The notes under the pieces are model-generated. The model was not told where the DNA came from. It saw only the letters and a list, made by a program, of their open reading frames with translations, and made no database searches. Below are positions 12,887 through 34,543 of a stretch of DNA of 39,168 nucleotides, one piece after another (position 1 is the first letter of the stretch; every line of letters begins with the position of its first letter). Source of the stretch: an uncultured bacterium (GTDB lineage: Bacteria > Cyanobacteriota > Vampirovibrionia > Gastranaerophilales > Gastranaerophilaceae); assembly GCA_902767275.1 (NCBI GenBank), contig CACXGY010000047.1, forward strand, positions 1 through 39,168, given 5' to 3'. The translations under genes were made by a program, and so were the position numbers.

Positions 12887-14419
12887 ATGAAGGTATCAAA
12901 CATTAACTCTGTACCTATTTATGGTGCAAACATTTCTGTTGACAAAAAACAAAACAATATCAAACAACAAAATGTTATGAGTAATGTCGTCATGTGTCAT
13001 AACAATCCTCTGGTTGATAAAAATTACGGTATACTTCAAACTAAGAAAATGAATGTTTCCTTCAAAGGAGGGCTTCCTGCTCTTCCTACAAAAACACTAA
13101 GCGGAAAAATAAACAATTTGTTTAATATTGTAAAAACAAACGATATTATTGTTACCGCTCCAAATTATAATCACGCTATTGAATCTCTCAAAAATAACGT
13201 TGGAAATATTAAAACTGTGATAAAAAGAGTTTTCTTTGTTGAAGATAAATCTTTAGACCGAGCAATCGGATTTAGAAAAAATCTCGGGGACAGAGAAGCA
13301 ATAAATCTAAGTGACAAACCGCTTATGATAAAAGATTCAAAAAATGAACTTGGTTTTTTGAGAAAAGGAGAGAGTGGTTATCTGCTGGACGGGGATACAA
13401 TAAATCCCAGAAAAACAGAAATAAATATCAAAAATGATGAAACTACTTATTTACCAATAAAAGATTCTTTTGATATGTTTCTTGATTTTGATAAAGAAGT
13501 TGAAGATAAAATTAAACAAATAAATGAAAACTCTCTTTCTCTTGTTAAGACAGGAGAAAAAGAAACCAAAAAAGAACATAAAATAACGTTTGCAGATGTC
13601 GGCGGAATGGATAGTACAATTAAAGAATTAAAGAAAACAATTCTCTATCCTATTAAACATCCTGAAATAAAAAACGGGAAGAATATGAGGCAATCAGTAC
13701 TTCTGTACGGACCTCCGGGCACGGGTAAGTCATTTGTCGCAGAAGCATGTGCAAATGAATCCGGAGCATGGTTCAAAAAAATCAATGCCTCTGAACTAGA
13801 TTCAAAATGGGTTGGAGAATCAGAAAAGAACTGGCGTGATTTATTTACAGAAGCAAGAAAAAACCAACCTTCCGTAATATTTATTGATGAAATAGATGCA
13901 ATCGCTAAAAAACGTGGCGGTAGTGATGTATATGGAGATAAGACCTTAAATACAATCTTAGGATTAATGAGTGATTCGGAAAAACGTGGAGATCAAATTT
14001 ATATGATTGCCGCAACTAATAAAAAAGATGCTTTGGACAGTGCAATCCTTCGCTCCGGCAGAATCAGTGTTGCAATAGAGGTTAAAGAGCCTGATTTGAA
14101 AGGAACGGGAGATATCTTAAGTAAATATATTGAAAATGAACCAATTGCAGAAGATTTTGATAGATCAGCAGCCGCACAAAAACTTTTCAAACAAAAAGCG
14201 ACTGGTGCTGATATAGCATCTGTAACTGAAGATGCCAGAAATTATGCTTTGGAAAGAGAAAATATTTATGAAAAGATTGATAATGGAACTTATAAACCGG
14301 AAGATATGGCTTCTCTAAGAATTACAAATGAAGATTTTGATAATGCTCTTAATGCATTTGCAAAATCACATAAGTCTTCTGAAAGAAAACCTATCGGGTT
14401 CAACAGCAGTCTTTATTAA
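12887..14419 (+). CDS. Stand-alone AAA+ ATPase with an unusual N-terminal region (FKG motif)
   Basis: The C-terminal half is a classic AAA domain: GPPGTGKS (275-282), a pore-loop segment SKWVGESEKNW typical of Vps4/katanin-like AAA proteins, Walker B VIFIDEIDA (330-338), sensor-1 AATNKK, and SAILRSGRI in place of the usual LLRPGRFD. No HExxH protease or second AAA domain follows. The first ~230 residues match nothing I know; they include a low-complexity Asn/Lys start and VSFKGG at about 57-62. The family suggests remodelling or unfolding of a protein substrate, but the substrate is unknown. The gene is monocistronic with its own promoter (12789) and terminator (14451). GAAGGGG precedes the ATG. 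Confidence 0.85.
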   Translation: MKVSNINSVPIYGANISVDKKQNNIKQQNVMSNVVMCHNNPLVDKNYGILQTKKMNVSFKGGLPALPTKTLSGKINNLFNIVKTNDIIVTAPNYNHAIESLKNNVGNIKTVIKRVFFVEDKSLDRAIGFRKNLGDREAINLSDKPLMIKDSKNELGFLRKGESGYLLDGDTINPRKTEINIKNDETTYLPIKDSFDMFLDFDKEVEDKIKQINENSLSLVKTGEKETKKEHKITFADVGGMDSTIKELKKTILYPIKHPEIKNGKNMRQSVLLYGPPGTGKSFVAEACANESGAWFKKINASELDSKWVGESEKNWRDLFTEARKNQPSVIFIDEIDAIAKKRGGSDVYGDKTLNTILGLMSDSEKRGDQIYMIAATNKKDALDSAILRSGRISVAIEVKEPDLKGTGDILSKYIENEPIAEDFDRSAAAQKLFKQKATGADIASVTEDARNYALERENIYEKIDNGTYKPEDMASLRITNEDFDNALNAFAKSHKSSERKPIGFNSSLY

Positions 14420-24686: not shown

Positions 24687-25130
24687 ATGGCACCAGATAT
24701 TTCATACGTTAACACATACGGATATGCGATTGATAGTTCTAACTTAAAAGATAATCTTAAGTTGGTTCTCAACAATGCTGTTCAAAAAAATGCAAATACT
24801 CCGGAGGCTGTAATTGAACAAAATGTTGCTAGTACAAATTCCGCACTCTTATTCGAGTACACCCAAAGTATAGCAAAATCAAATATTGCACAACAGTTAG
24901 TGTTAGATAACAATCTGAAAGAAACTTTAAAGTTTCTAAAATCAGAAGCAGCAAAAAGAATTTCTCAAACCGCAAAGAAAAAAGCAAGTGATATTGTTGA
25001 ACAAATCTTAGCGGGCAATGATATTAACGATTTTAAATCAGAAGAACAAGAAAAAGAGGAAGATATGGATAATCTTGAACTCTTTGATATAAAAATTGAT
25101 ACAGGCAAAAGAAATATTTTTGCCGCATAG
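24687..25130 (+). CDS. Small helical hypothetical protein
   Basis: 147 aa with no signal peptide or membrane segment. Residues ~20-110 read as amphipathic helices (for example SNIAQQLVLDNNLKETLKFLKSEAAKRI), followed by an acidic stretch (SEEQEKEEDMDNLELFD). I do not recognise the family. AATAGGAAAA precedes the ATG, and a terminator follows at 25172. The preceding 149-bp gap holds no other gene. Confidence 0.6.
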   Translation: MAPDISYVNTYGYAIDSSNLKDNLKLVLNNAVQKNANTPEAVIEQNVASTNSALLFEYTQSIAKSNIAQQLVLDNNLKETLKFLKSEAAKRISQTAKKKASDIVEQILAGNDINDFKSEEQEKEEDMDNLELFDIKIDTGKRNIFAA

Positions 25131-29380: not shown

Positions 29381-31189
29381 ATGAAACAGCAGAAACTAAT
29401 ATGTATAATTATTTTATTATCATTATTTGTGCTGTTTTTTATTTATCAATACAATAAAAGAACTACTTTTGAAGTTTTGAAAGTTTATAATCCTTTGACA
29501 ATTGGTGTTGATAAAAATCGAAACGGTACAGTTGATGATGGCGAAATTATTACTGTATTAGACGGATATAGCATTATTAATAAAGAAGATATAACAAACC
29601 ATACTAAGTATCCTTCTCTTAATACAAAAACTAAATCAGCATTTTATTTTCTTTCAGATAAATATTCAAAAGATATATTGCTTGATAAACGAGTCGAATT
29701 AAAACAAGTAAACAATAAAAACGAAATAATTATAAACAAAGAACCCTATTCAAATATATTATTAAAATCGGGTTATATATTCCAATCAGAAAAACCCACT
29801 AATAAAGACATCTATAATAGACGGTTAAATCAAATATTAAAAGCCGATTATAAAATATATAACCCCTCAAGCAATAAATATCACGAATTGGATTGCGAAT
29901 ACGGATTGGCATCCGGAAAGGTTATACTATTAACAAAAGCACAGTTACCAAAAGGTGCAAAACCTTGTGAAGTATGCGTAGTACATAAAAAGAAAAAACA
30001 CTTTTATAATATACATAACAAATATGATATACCATCTCCGCCAATGATATATTCATCAGGGGCTATAAAAATATTTTTGTCTGATCATACAAGAACGTTA
30101 AAACCGGACAGATTAGGGAACACAGAACTCTGTAATGAACTTGTTCGTCAAATAAATTCTGCAAAATCAACTATTGATATAGCAATTTATGGTTATGATA
30201 AAGTACCTAAAATAGAAAAAGCAATTAAAAATGCTATTGCAAGAGGAGTAAAAATACGTTTAGTTTACGATATAGATTCAAAAGGCGAAAATATTTATTC
30301 GGATACAGATTATTTAGTCAACATTATTAATAATGCACAATGTGATACAGCCCCTTTAAACATAAAAAATCCGTCTAAATATACAAACTCTATAATGCAT
30401 AACAAATTTTATATTTTTGATAAGTCTACAGTTATAGCAGGTTCTGCAAATATGAGTTTTACTGATATGTCCGGATTTAATTCTAATTGCTTAATCCTAA
30501 TTCGTTCAAAACAAATTGCGGATATTTATACAAAAGAATTTGAACAAATGTTTAATAAAAGATTTCACAATTTAAAATCAAAGATTGATAACAAAGAAAA
30601 TATTCAACTCGGGAAATCGAACATTTCAATCTATTTTTCTCCTACAGATTCAATTATAGATAATGCTATAATACCCTACATCAATAAAGCGGAAAAGTAT
30701 ATTTATATGCCTGTGTTTTTAATTACAGAAAAGCATCTGACAAATGCACTTATTCGTGCAAAACAACGAGGAGTGGATATAAAAATAATTGTTGACGCTA
30801 CAAATGCAAAAAATGATTATTCAAAACATAAATTATTAAGAGCAAATGGGATTTTAGTTAAAACAGAGAATTATGCAGGGAAACTACATTCAAAATCAAT
30901 TATAATAGATGACAAATACACATTTATAGGTTCAATGAATTTTTCTAACAGCGGAGTTTATAAAAACGATGAAAATGTTATTTTAATAAAAGATTCCGGA
31001 CTAACAATGTTTTATAAAAAGTATTTTTTATATATTTGGAACAGAATAAATAATTATTGGTCAAAACACGATGTAAGTGCCGAAAGTATATATTCAATCG
31101 GTTCTTGCTCTGACGGAATAGATAATGATTACGACGGTAAAACTGATAATGAAGATGAAGGTTGTAAAATGAAGCCTAAAAAGCGTTAG
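29381..31189 (+). CDS. Membrane-anchored PLD-family nuclease with SNase-like and zinc-knuckle N-terminal parts
   Basis: 602 aa from the chosen start. An uncleaved anchor (about 5-22) is followed by a region (28-135) resembling a degenerate thermonuclease fold, with SNILLKSGYIF near its end. An H168-x3-C172 ... C196-x2-C199 cluster follows, as seen in SNase- and Ada-type zinc sites. Two HKD motifs come next: HNKFYIFD (340) with GSANMS, and HSKSIIID (503) with GSMNFS, the paired active site of phospholipase-D nucleases. DKNRNGTVDDGE (44-55) and SDGIDNDYDGKTDNEDEG near the end look like Ca-binding loops. ATG 29381 is preferred over 29363: a GGA lies about 7 nt before it, and it starts right at the membrane anchor. 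Confidence 0.82.
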   Translation: MKQQKLICIIILLSLFVLFFIYQYNKRTTFEVLKVYNPLTIGVDKNRNGTVDDGEIITVLDGYSIINKEDITNHTKYPSLNTKTKSAFYFLSDKYSKDILLDKRVELKQVNNKNEIIINKEPYSNILLKSGYIFQSEKPTNKDIYNRRLNQILKADYKIYNPSSNKYHELDCEYGLASGKVILLTKAQLPKGAKPCEVCVVHKKKKHFYNIHNKYDIPSPPMIYSSGAIKIFLSDHTRTLKPDRLGNTELCNELVRQINSAKSTIDIAIYGYDKVPKIEKAIKNAIARGVKIRLVYDIDSKGENIYSDTDYLVNIINNAQCDTAPLNIKNPSKYTNSIMHNKFYIFDKSTVIAGSANMSFTDMSGFNSNCLILIRSKQIADIYTKEFEQMFNKRFHNLKSKIDNKENIQLGKSNISIYFSPTDSIIDNAIIPYINKAEKYIYMPVFLITEKHLTNALIRAKQRGVDIKIIVDATNAKNDYSKHKLLRANGILVKTENYAGKLHSKSIIIDDKYTFIGSMNFSNSGVYKNDENVILIKDSGLTMFYKKYFLYIWNRINNYWSKHDVSAESIYSIGSCSDGIDNDYDGKTDNEDEGCKMKPKKR

Positions 31190-32814
31190 GTATACAATTT
31201 AAATGTCTTATCAATATTATTTTTCATTATATCTTCCAGCGATTCAATTTCTGTTGTTAAAGCACTTCTTTCTGATTCTAATTTTGATAACATAGTATCG
31301 TATTTTGTATCTTTATCATTTATACGTGCTAATTCCGCCTCATATTCTTGTGATGCTTTATCAATTCTTGCCTGATCTGATATTTCTCTTATATTAGTGT
31401 TCAATTCTGTAGATGTCTTTGACAGCATCTCATTTTCGTAATCCCAAGTTGTCAAAATAACTTGAGCATTTTTAATCATATTACTTACCCAAGTTGTATT
31501 TTTAGCACGTTCATCATTAGCATCAAGCCAGCCGCCGGCAGCAGATATAGCATTATATACTTCTTCGTAATATTTACCTTTTACTTTGTCAGTCGGTTCT
31601 GCTTCATAAACAGGAGTATATGCCTCATATTCAGCCTTGCAATTCAAATATTCTTTGTAGTTTTTAATTTTTGCTCTTGATATTCCGTTTGCTGCAAGAA
31701 ATTCATCTTCATTCTTTGTATCATTCATAACTTTATCATACATTTCTATTAATGCATCCCCTAAACATTCAAGAGATTTTCCGATTTGAGATGAATAAGA
31801 AGAAATTAAACTTGTTATGCTACTATCATAAATATTATAATTATACGAAACATCGTTCTCAATTGACGGAGAAGCAAAACCCATATTATAAGAAATTTTT
31901 TGAACTCCTTCCCAGGTAATATTACCGCCGGAGAGCATCATTGCGAATTTATCATTTGCTGTTAATACATTTCCGTCATTTTCTTTTGCGTAGTTTGTAG
32001 AATCTTTTGTTGCATAAACACTTGTATTAAAGTATTCTGTTTTAGTTGAACCGGAGTCAGAATCTTCAGGAAATTTTAAAGAAATTCCGTTAATAATATC
32101 AATAGATGCTTTTACAAGTGCACGTTCGGTTGCATTATATGCTGAATTATAGTAAGCACTTCCCATTACTGCTTCTGCATTTATTACATAACTTGACCCT
32201 GCATAATTATTTGTATATACAGGTTCGTAAATTTTGTTTTTATCTTTTGTAGGAATAAAACTTTTTGCAAGTGCTGCTGTATTTCTAATAACTGTATCCT
32301 TTGCAACAGCCTGATTATAACCGTCAATCAAAGCATCAATAGTTTCCTTATCCGAACCAAGAATGGTATCCCATCCATTTGCGAGTGCATTTTCATAATT
32401 TGTTTTTGCACTCTCATTTATATCAACATCAACATATTCAACTCCAAATGCTTCTGCAAAAGCACGAGCATTACTTGCCGAATCGTATTTGTTTCCTATT
32501 TCTGTCGGAACATATAGTTTACCTGTTGTCATATCTTGAACGTAGAAAACACTTCCTGATGTATTCTCTGCAGTTCCGTATCTCATCAAATTATTTATAC
32601 TACCGTCAATCCAAATTGAACGTCCTGAATCCCCATTTGTTTGTAATGTTTTAATCGTTGTACCGTTTAAAGCATCAAGATAAACATGATATGCTTTATC
32701 AGAATCATTAGATAAACGCATTTTGTTGTGTTGAATGCGTTGAGCATTATACTCGACAGTATGCTGACGAGTAGTTAATGATAAAAGTCGTGCTTGTGAT
32801 GCTGATAAACCCAC
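31186..32814 (-). CDS. Lineage-specific protein with MGLSASQARLL N-terminus, function unknown
   Basis: 542 aa, no signal peptide. The N-terminus MGLSASQARLLSLTTRQHTVEYNAQRI and the C-terminus LTTEIESLEDIMKNNIDKTFK look like conserved heptad-type helical ends. A long Asn/Ser/Tyr-rich middle (~100-480) looks variable, giving a filament- or hook-like layout. I recall similar N-termini from gut Melainabacteria proteins, but no function is known to me. The start codon is GTG with AGGA about 10 nt upstream. Its stop overlaps the stop of the convergent PLD gene by 4 nt, with no terminator between them. A 20-bp perfect palindrome lies upstream at 32830. Confidence 0.75.
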   Translation of the reverse strand: MGLSASQARLLSLTTRQHTVEYNAQRIQHNKMRLSNDSDKAYHVYLDALNGTTIKTLQTNGDSGRSIWIDGSINNLMRYGTAENTSGSVFYVQDMTTGKLYVPTEIGNKYDSASNARAFAEAFGVEYVDVDINESAKTNYENALANGWDTILGSDKETIDALIDGYNQAVAKDTVIRNTAALAKSFIPTKDKNKIYEPVYTNNYAGSSYVINAEAVMGSAYYNSAYNATERALVKASIDIINGISLKFPEDSDSGSTKTEYFNTSVYATKDSTNYAKENDGNVLTANDKFAMMLSGGNITWEGVQKISYNMGFASPSIENDVSYNYNIYDSSITSLISSYSSQIGKSLECLGDALIEMYDKVMNDTKNEDEFLAANGISRAKIKNYKEYLNCKAEYEAYTPVYEAEPTDKVKGKYYEEVYNAISAAGGWLDANDERAKNTTWVSNMIKNAQVILTTWDYENEMLSKTSTELNTNIREISDQARIDKASQEYEAELARINDKDTKYDTMLSKLESERSALTTEIESLEDIMKNNIDKTFKLYT

Positions 32815-32829
32815 TTTAGAATATTCCTA

Positions 32830-32849: not shown

Positions 32850-32923
32850 ATTGACGGCATTTTTAAGGAGTTTCTTTAGATATGAACGGGTTTTTGTTAC
32901 ATTTGTTAATATAAATTAAATAC

Positions 32924-33400
32924 TTATCTATAATATCTTGTAACGTTTGTTAAATAAGTTTCATAAGCCTTATAGCCTTTGAACATTTCATTACTATTGG
33001 TTGAATAATTATCAGATAATACAAACTTAATTTCTTTTACTCTTATATTTAGTAACTTTGTAGCATCCTCTCGTATAATATCATCTGTAGAAGTTGCCCA
33101 ATCTTTTAGTTGTGCGATTTCTTTATTAGCCTTTGATATCGTTGTATTTTCCAAAGTATCAAAAGAATATTTATTCAATAAAGCAGTTTCAACCATCGTA
33201 ATTCTTGGTTGAACAATTTGGAAAGAACAAATTCGACGCAAAACAACATAATTATCAGCAATTCGTCTGTGAGAATAAGGGACGGATGATTTTGCCAATA
33301 AAGTAGATACCTCTAAATCAGAGCATAAATCATCATTATTAATTTTAGATTTTGATGAACTTTTATTTGATTTGAATATGTCATCTAATTTAGTGTTCAT
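32924..33400 (-). CDS. Hypothetical protein
   Basis: 158 aa, soluble, Ser/Lys/Asn-rich at the start, then helical (PRITMVETALLNKYSF...ISKANKEIAQLKDW). No motif that I recognise. AGAGGGA lies 3-4 nt before the ATG. It begins 21 nt after the wecA-like gene, and the MGLSASQ gene follows after 109 nt, so it may be co-expressed with either. Confidence 0.65.
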   Translation of the reverse strand: MNTKLDDIFKSNKSSSKSKINNDDLCSDLEVSTLLAKSSVPYSHRRIADNYVVLRRICSFQIVQPRITMVETALLNKYSFDTLENTTISKANKEIAQLKDWATSTDDIIREDATKLLNIRVKEIKFVLSDNYSTNSNEMFKGYKAYETYLTNVTRYYR

Positions 33401-33421: not shown

Positions 33422-34543
33422 TTACTGCTTGTTTTTTGTGAAAACGTCGAATAAACTTAATAAAATCATTAAAACTAATACAATCAGTATATAATAAACA
33501 TAATGTCTAATAGATAAAATTCCTAAAAATTGAGTTGCAATAGCCCCTGCAAATATAGCGACAGCCGTCATTATAGCGACTGTAAATTTTTGTGAAAAGC
33601 CTGCTTTCAAGAGTTTATGATGTATGTGTTCAGCATCAGCAACAAACGGAGATTTACCTTTAAAAATCCGTCTTAAACTGGAATAAGTAATATCCATAAT
33701 AGGAACAGCCAAAACAATAAACGGGAGTAGAATTGCAAGAGTAGCACTTTTCATAATACCTGTAATCGAAATAGAAGCGAGCATAAAACCTGAGAACAAC
33801 GCTCCTGAATCTCCCATAAAGATTTTTGCAGGATTAAAATTAAAGGTTAAAAATGCCATCATTGAACCCGCCAAAATAAAAGCAATCAATGCACTAATCG
33901 GATTTGGCGGAGTCATAGCAAGAGCAATTATTGCTAGTGTAATAGCATTAACAGTGATAACCGAACCTGCAAGTCCGTCGACACCATCAATAAAATTAAC
34001 AGCATTACTAATCCCAACGACCCACAAAATAGTCAAAGGATATGATGCCCAAGCATTCAAGTGTATCAAATCTCCGGTAGGATTAAGAGGATTAAATATA
34101 GTATCAAACTTAACCCCTAAGCAATATACAACTGTAACAATCAAAATTTGTAATAATAATTTAAACTTTGCATCTAAATTATAAATATCGTCAACGAGTC
34201 CTAATAAAAACATCAACGAACCACCCAACAACATACCTGAAACCAAACTGCCATAAGGATAATAACTAAGTAAAACTAAAATAAGGAAAGTAAGCATAGT
34301 ACTTGTCCAAATTGCAACTCCACCTATTCTTGATACAGGCTTCTTATGGATTTTACGTTCATTAGGAAGATCAACTAATCCTTCTTTTTTAGAAAATGCA
34401 ATTACCATCGGAACAATAAAGACACCAAGAATATAGGAGATAACCGCTCCTATAATATTAATCCCAACAGTTTCCGATAACTCGATAATAATCTTCCTAT
34501 CCTCACATATTTGAATACAAAGGGAATTTCTTACAAAGAGCAA
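33422..34543 (-). CDS. WecA/TagO-type UDP-sugar:undecaprenyl-phosphate sugar-1-phosphate transferase
   Basis: Multi-spanning enzyme that loads a sugar-phosphate on undecaprenyl phosphate to begin O-antigen, teichoic-acid or other surface glycan synthesis. It shows [14 protein letters not shown], the DD motif [40 protein letters not shown] and the C-terminal [12 protein letters not shown]. It resembles WecA/TagO rather than MraY. The only canonical start is TTG 34543, inside glyA. A strong GAGGATAGGAAG right after the glyA stop faces ATT codons, so the true start may be non-canonical. The function is firm; the sugar is unknown. Confidence 0.9.

Follow-up and report, generated by a model that had tools for sequence, protein, structure and literature searches.

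MGLSASQ-family proteins of the Gastranaerophilaceae as probable sigma-28-type late substrates of a proposed second type III export system without flagellin

The window analysed here is a stretch of 39,168 nucleotides (assembly GCA_902767275.1, contig CACXGY010000047.1, positions 1 to 39,168 of the forward strand) from an uncultured bacterium of the cyanobacterial family Gastranaerophilaceae. We were interested in one gene on its minus strand, a real open reading frame (ORF) for a protein that we call the MGLSASQ protein, in the promoter in front of it and in the family of paralogues to which it belongs. The features of the locus are collected in Table 1.

Table 1. Features at the window gene for the MGLSASQ protein
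Feature	Position	Strand	Remark
Coding sequence, MGLSASQ-family protein, sigma-28-linked clade	31186..32814	minus	542 amino acids; GTG start at 32814, stop at 31186
Sigma-28 (FliA)-type promoter core TAAAGAAACTCCTTAAAAATGCCGT	32854..32878	minus	ends 39 bp before the start codon
Possible Shine-Dalgarno sequence AGGA	32825..32828	minus	by eye; 10 nt before the start
Conserved N-terminal helix, residues 2-49	32668..32811	minus	alignment of 24 homologues and AlphaFold2 model
Variable middle, residues 50-480, mixed alpha/beta, Asn/Ser/Tyr-rich	31375..32667	minus	alignment, model and composition
Conserved C-terminal helix, residues 481-541	31192..31374	minus	alignment and model

The window gene and its paralogues

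The window protein begins with M-G-L as its homologues do, and its two ends are the conserved parts. Among the 24 aligned homologues G2, Q7, R9, L11, T14, R16, E21 and Y45 of the N-terminal helix are invariant, and the C-terminal helix has conserved positions (Y491, E515, A518, E522, N533 and F538) at a fixed spacing to the C-terminus. The middle is conserved only with six orthologues of 532-551 residues. Asn, Ser and Tyr together make up 26.5% of residues 51-480, and the whole protein has the highest content of these residues among the 35 window ORFs of at least 120 amino acids (median 16.9%). No hydrophobic signal-peptide run was seen at the N-terminus, as judged by eye and with no predictor run. 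The AlphaFold2 model places helices at residues 2-49 and 481-541 around a mixed middle, with a mean predicted local distance difference test score (pLDDT) of 76.9, a predicted template modelling score (pTM) of 0.45 and pLDDT below 50 at residues 183-211 and 245-282. A 215-residue relative was modelled with the same layout of a long N-terminal helix, a mixed middle and a long C-terminal helix (pTM 0.45). A preliminary description of this DNA had proposed terminal helices around an Asn/Ser/Tyr-rich middle, and model, conservation and composition bear this out. It had also called the ends strongly patterned, which holds for their conservation and modelled fold but not for their helical hydrophobic moment, since 450 of 2000 (N-terminal) and 217 of 2000 (C-terminal) shuffled sequences reached values as high. 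We therefore take the ends to be helices because they are conserved and so modelled, the hydrophobic moment giving no support.

The paralogue count suggested in the same description was carried out in the genome to which the window belongs (1.81 Mb in 114 contigs, 88.5% complete). A search with the window protein gave 29 matches which, apart from the protein itself, nearly all span only its first ~130 or last ~140 residues. With a 62-residue N-terminal profile there were 21 matches genome-wide, contig-edge fragments included, and 17 N-terminal family ORFs with 200 bp of upstream DNA were collected from the stretches fetched from this genome, giving at least 17 paralogues. Fifteen members that could be aligned are 233-984 residues long, with both ends conserved and a variable middle: their mean ungapped identity is 47% over the first 45 residues, 26% over the last 45 and 8% over residues 100-144. 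G2, S6, Q7, R9, L11 and R16 are invariant among them, as is a phenylalanine near the C-terminus. The middles of several long members contain GLUG repeats, and one calpain-like/RTX-like stretch was found among them.

Some further observations were made around these genes. One long member (L010:8729-11667) is broken into two overlapping frames of 232 and 749 residues by a frameshift or an assembly error. Near another family gene lies a 932-residue protein with strong RTX calcium-binding repeats (L018:2552-5350). An F-K-G/S segment, for example VSFKG, recurs in the first ~60 residues of several otherwise unrelated proteins of this genome (window 12887-14419; L014:11920-15397; L028:15322-16377). 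Upstream of the window gene on the same strand are ORFs of 158 (32924-33400) and 373 amino acids (33422-34543), positions that agree with the small gene and the gene called WecA-type in the preliminary description.

No known-family label could be given to the window protein, as searches of Pfam, NCBIfam and PDB sequences returned nothing above coiled-coil noise. The preliminary description had named kinship to a known family of cytoplasmic enzymes as the result that would speak against it; a match of this kind was looked for in these three databases and not found. The Flagellin_N and Flagellin_C profiles do not match the protein either, and kinship to FliE was rejected by profile comparison. 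Needle and tip protein profiles gave no match in Pfam scans or PDB profile searches; in a Foldseek search with the 215-residue model a type III tip protein headed the list at a non-significant E of 0.035 and a template modelling (TM) score of 0.2. VIA-align returned coiled coils with Z up to 11, which lies under the caution level of the tool for helical models, so we claim no fold.

A sigma-28-type promoter and a candidate sigma factor

To count the promoter of Table 1 we used the 200 bp upstream of each gene, TAAA-N14-16-GCCG as the strict core and, in the window's genome, other ORFs of at least 100 residues for comparison. The strict core precedes 8 of the 17 family genes versus 2 of 255 other ORFs (p 1.5e-9), and a lenient core 11 of 17 versus 3 of 255. 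An independent set drawn from the loci of relatives gave 29 of 66 family genes versus 2 of 693 others (strict; p 8e-32) and 48 of 66 versus 8 of 693 (lenient); pooled, the strict core stands before 37 of 83 family genes and 4 of 948 others. Among these 83 genes a spacing of 15 occurs in 15 and a spacing of 16 in 22; no other spacing between 8 and 21 is found in more than 2, and spacings of 22 and 23 are found in 3 and 5. Only the true motif was enriched among 24 letter permutations, each of the 23 controls preceding at most 1 of the 83 members. The consensus of 59 lenient sites, TAAAGTTTT...TGCCGTAATA, is close to the FliA consensus TAAAGTTT-N11-GCCGATAA given in an excerpt of PMC7286023.

Genome-wide the core with GCCGT occurs at 17 sites, 8 of them before family genes. 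The reversed pattern is equally common (20 sites), so the evidence is the position before family genes and not the total number. The other sites precede three large proteins, an HD-GYP-like protein, a 134-residue protein and a 94-residue operon partner, the remainder lying inside genes or before a 70-residue ORF. At 25-65 bp the core is found upstream of L155:581-2947, L157:1-3384 and L162:1015-3573 (788, 1128 and 852 residues, the second cut by the end of the stretch), which have no visible signal peptide and by eye contain EF-hand-like stretches, and upstream of the HD-GYP-like protein (L158:1006-2367) and the 134-residue protein (L163:2894-3298). These five non-members are candidates for further substrates or members of the regulon. 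Within the window, a 147-residue protein of no known family (24687-25130, plus strand) has a near-consensus motif, TAAAGTTTTTTAATAATTATCCG, beginning 58 bp upstream and is possibly another regulon member.

Beside flhB lies a gene whose best subfamily match is a FliA/WhiG sigma factor. It directly adjoins flhB in all five genomes of the window's family that were examined (L153, L165-L168) and at the type-2 flhB locus of genome G002 (L170); a homologue was absent beside the type-2 flhB of G008 and beside either of the flagellar-type flhB genes examined. Genes of the export apparatus lack the motif and substrate-like genes carry it. In flagellar systems the late genes are expressed after completion of the basal body, which then exports their products; the distribution of the motif follows the same logic.

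A sigma-28-type promoter could also be read in another way, with the family forming cytoplasmic coiled-coil scaffolds that merely sit within the regulon, as chemoreceptors do elsewhere. The best of the weak structural matches are coiled coils, one of them a chemoreceptor cytoplasmic domain, and the HD-GYP-like protein has the same promoter. We consider this improbable, as the middles are highly variable and carry GLUG repeats, and copy number and length vary as they do in displayed proteins.

Core-only relatives and a separate FlhA lineage

The family profile, FlhA, Flagellin_N, MotB_plug and the rod motif were searched in one draw of 146 genomes of the class, in which f1 denotes the window's own family. 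Matches to the family profile occur in 70 of the 146 genomes, 52 of f1 and 18 of the families f3, f8 and f9. The N-terminal profile matched 132 of 292 genomes in a sample of the phylum (the own family, one of the same order and one marginal case). The lineage specificity claimed at the outset is thus supported, with members confined to four families in the class sample and a single marginal match added outside the order. This match is in G320, a 6.2 Mb genome from another family, and is either chance or a distant relative (8.6e-5). A scan of genome contigs with the single protein had found no relatives; the profile-based scan did.

In the flagellated families f3, f8 and f9 the homologue is reduced to the two ends and a short linker. 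This core-only form has 109 residues in all 12 fetched copies (in two, once an upstream start had been trimmed), and its profile recurs at the C-terminus of the long forms (hhalign probability 99.3; hmmsearch E-values 1e-6 to 1e-26). In seven fetched loci (L116, L117, L121, L122, L123, L125 and L126) the core-only gene heads a gene set with conserved proteins of ~300 and ~85 residues. The same set occurs in the window's genome (L023) and in four relatives (L112-L115), where a long member precedes it and a ~108-residue member follows; in L115 no small middle ORF was picked. The partner encoded after the family gene has 272-315 residues (L116:6524-7432, L121:1466-2410, L023:2972-3823 and nine others, alignment A7). 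Its middle is hydrophobic and rich in Gly and Ala, its C-terminus is coiled, and by eye it recalls membrane-inserting translocators; profile and database searches gave it no known family. In a tree built from the joined ends of 30 members, a promoter-bearing clade (10 of 11, including the window gene) stands apart from one of operon-type and core-only members (2 of 19, lenient motif). The likely history is that an ancestral 109-residue protein of the second export system described below acquired an inserted middle in the gut lineage, was duplicated and was captured by the sigma-28 regulon.

The preliminary description had seen no secretion genes nearby, which is correct within the window and does not hold for the genome, where a flagellar-type export set is encoded. 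Full-length FlhA adjoins FliH, with FliE, FliF and a FliG-like protein (FliG_M 19.4 bits versus a cut-off of 25) on the same contig; FlhB is on another contig, and a four-gene rod operon (L152) encodes FlgB, FlgC, FlgF and a FlgG-like protein. In 11 of 12 f1 genomes picked for few contigs or known positions, flhA has a family member within 20 kb (G138 is the exception), where uniform placement would give ~2.6. As these genomes are related, the proximity is conserved synteny and does not count as an independent event in each of the 11. Most members in f3, f8 and f9 lie far from the second flhA.

Across the class, FlhA matches occur in 94 of the 146 genomes, including all 70 that bear the family, and the rod motif in 91, including all 52 of f1. 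Flagellin_N and the stator profile MotB_plug each match 27 genomes, the same 27, and in profile searches neither matches any of the 52 f1 genomes. A tree of 30 FlhA proteins separates a flagellar clade from f3, f4, f8 and f9, the flagellin families, from a second clade (support 100/100) into which the FlhA of the window's genome falls. Branch 2a of this second clade holds f1, f3, f8 and f9, exactly the families with the MGLSASQ protein (100/99), and branch 2b holds f4, f5 and f6 (99/98). As judged from these trees and profiles, f3, f8 and f9 hold both export systems and f1 has retained the second alone.

The published view is that such partial gene sets are decaying remnants of a lost flagellum, in which case the MGLSASQ protein would be unrelated to them. 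Di Rienzi 2013 and Soo 2014 (PMC3787301, PMC4040986) report three early genomes with complete flagella and interpret the partial sets of others as loss, an account repeated by Utami 2018. This explanation appears very unlikely to us, as the retained FlhA forms a separate clade and coexists with flagellar FlhA in f3, f8 and f9, full-length FlhA is present in 51 of 52 f1 genomes, and a sigma gene beside flhB is accompanied by many sigma-28-type targets. Least probable of all is that the family consists of highly diverged true flagellins that replaced their ancestor. Layout and promoter type are the same and f1 lacks flagellin, but kinship was rejected by profile comparison with the flagellins of the class (hhalign probability 1.1), and flagellin and the MGLSASQ family coexist in all 18 f3, f8 and f9 genomes.

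Three observations touch on the apparatus. L029:15044-16504 (contig C16 of the window's genome, G000) encodes a stand-alone FlhA C-terminal domain of 486 residues (FHIPEP 323-655) with an unrelated N-terminal part, alongside full-length FlhA, and such a pair is also found in other genomes of the family. Since the FlhA C-terminal domain is the docking site for substrate-chaperone complexes, this protein may by analogy be a soluble substrate receptor. Near flhA, L014:15403-16845 (= L027:1404-2846) encodes a 480-residue protein with a C-terminal CHAP (peptidoglycan hydrolase) domain, a candidate for the wall-opening enzyme of the system. Among the 2b families f4-f6 (loci L128-L140, L146 and L147), f5 and f6 are also without flagellin and MotB, so that a further export system without a filament may be present there.

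A proposed late substrate with a displayed middle

Constant ends around a variable middle, a core-only form, a regulon-like sigma-28-type promoter and a flagellar-type export system in the same genome together support the comparison, made in the preliminary description, with flagellin and other type III-exported proteins. The analysis further shows the absence of flagellin and stator from the own family and a separate FlhA lineage. Our proposal is that a second type III export system, one without flagellin, probably has the MGLSASQ protein among its sigma-28-type late substrates. The FliA/WhiG-like sigma factor encoded beside flhB would transcribe the family gene from its sigma-28-type promoter, and the protein would be exported through the second flagellar-type apparatus. 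Its two terminal helices are predicted to form a conserved antiparallel core that would serve export and most likely also pack into a surface filament or cap, and the middle, different in every paralogue, would be exposed outside. We give this explanation as a whole, from promoter to displayed middle, a probability of about 0.6. Its parts differ in strength: export through the second apparatus is likely, given regulation, layout and genome context, and polymerisation, suggested by layout, falls a little below even odds.

Several results weigh against this proposal. The strict motif precedes none of 10 core-only members of f3, f8 and f9 and the lenient motif 1 of 10, the flagellin promoters of f3 lack the strict motif and the operon-type members of relatives in the own family lack it too (0 of 4); with the motif missing before core-only members and f3 flagellins, sigma-28 control can be taken as established in the own order only. 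The sigma gene scores 82.5 bits, under the FliA_WhiG cut-off of 189.6. There is no sequence relation to flagellin or to any axial family in Pfam or the PDB, and structure searches with the modelled proteins gave no significant PDB match, flagellins appearing at Z 8-9 among weak matches beside unrelated coiled coils. Genome G088 has seven family members with only partial FlhA matches, and no family member was detected by profile in the 2b lineages f4-f6. Co-occurrence of the protein with FlhA 2a amounts to one phylogenetic contrast and is weak alone.

A family that is exported without polymerising would account for much of the same evidence. Here the ends would be signals for secretion or chaperone binding, and the products released or surface-bound effectors or adhesins with differing middles. 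The great diversity of these middles, with their GLUG repeats and calpain-like/RTX-like stretch, would suit such a role, as would the up to 21 copies per genome and the promoter shared with the large signal-peptide-less non-members at L155, L157 and L162. We nevertheless regard it as unlikely, though the strongest of the alternatives, because conservation of both ends extends to the final residues, and the form found in f3, f8 and f9 consists of the ends alone, with no room for an effector domain.

The late-substrate reading can be set beside known systems. Like the axial proteins flagellin and hook-associated protein (PF00669, PF00700), the family has two conserved terminal helices, a variable middle, no visible signal peptide, many copies, a sigma-28-type promoter and a flagellar-type export apparatus in the genome. 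It differs from them in that neither sequence nor profile searches link the two, in its occurrence alongside real flagellins in f3, f8 and f9 and in having a core-only form of 109 residues; and the own family lacks flagellin and MotB. Type III needle and tip proteins resemble the family in the helical hairpin core predicted here, and the weak, non-significant Foldseek match was to a tip protein, but there is no profile match, and both FlhA and FlhB fit the flagellar models better than those of injectisomes (for the FlhA of the window's genome 702 bits with TIGR01398 FlhA versus 589 with TIGR01399 SctV, each under its cut-off). The non-flagellated Lysobacter enzymogenes OH11, according to an excerpt of PMC7277350, has kept a flagellar type III export apparatus that secretes heterologous flagellin and whose genes serve twitching motility. 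The likeness lies in an export apparatus without a flagellum; the difference lies in the twitching function there and, here, in the separate FlhA lineage with its own sigma gene and large substrate-like family. One may speculate, tentatively, about a type III appendage of a third kind, distinct from both flagellum and injectisome, in which a sigma-28-controlled basal body would build a non-rotating surface filament of the 109-residue core, and in which each subunit of the gut lineage would bear its own large displayed domain, giving at least 10 alternative coats. In the open literature searched we found no paper on the MGLSASQ family and none that describes a second type III system in this lineage or treats its type III genes as anything but a flagellum.

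Until now, the incomplete flagellar gene sets of gut Melainabacteria have been taken as decay. Our results suggest that these supposedly broken genes of gut relatives of cyanobacteria form a second export machine that works and has cargo of its own. If this is true, a surface or secretion system with a dedicated sigma factor and a large family of displayed or secreted proteins has gone unrecognised in a common, uncultured lineage of the gut. Such a system would also provide a natural test case for the origin of type III axial proteins, from a core of 109 residues to large decorated subunits.

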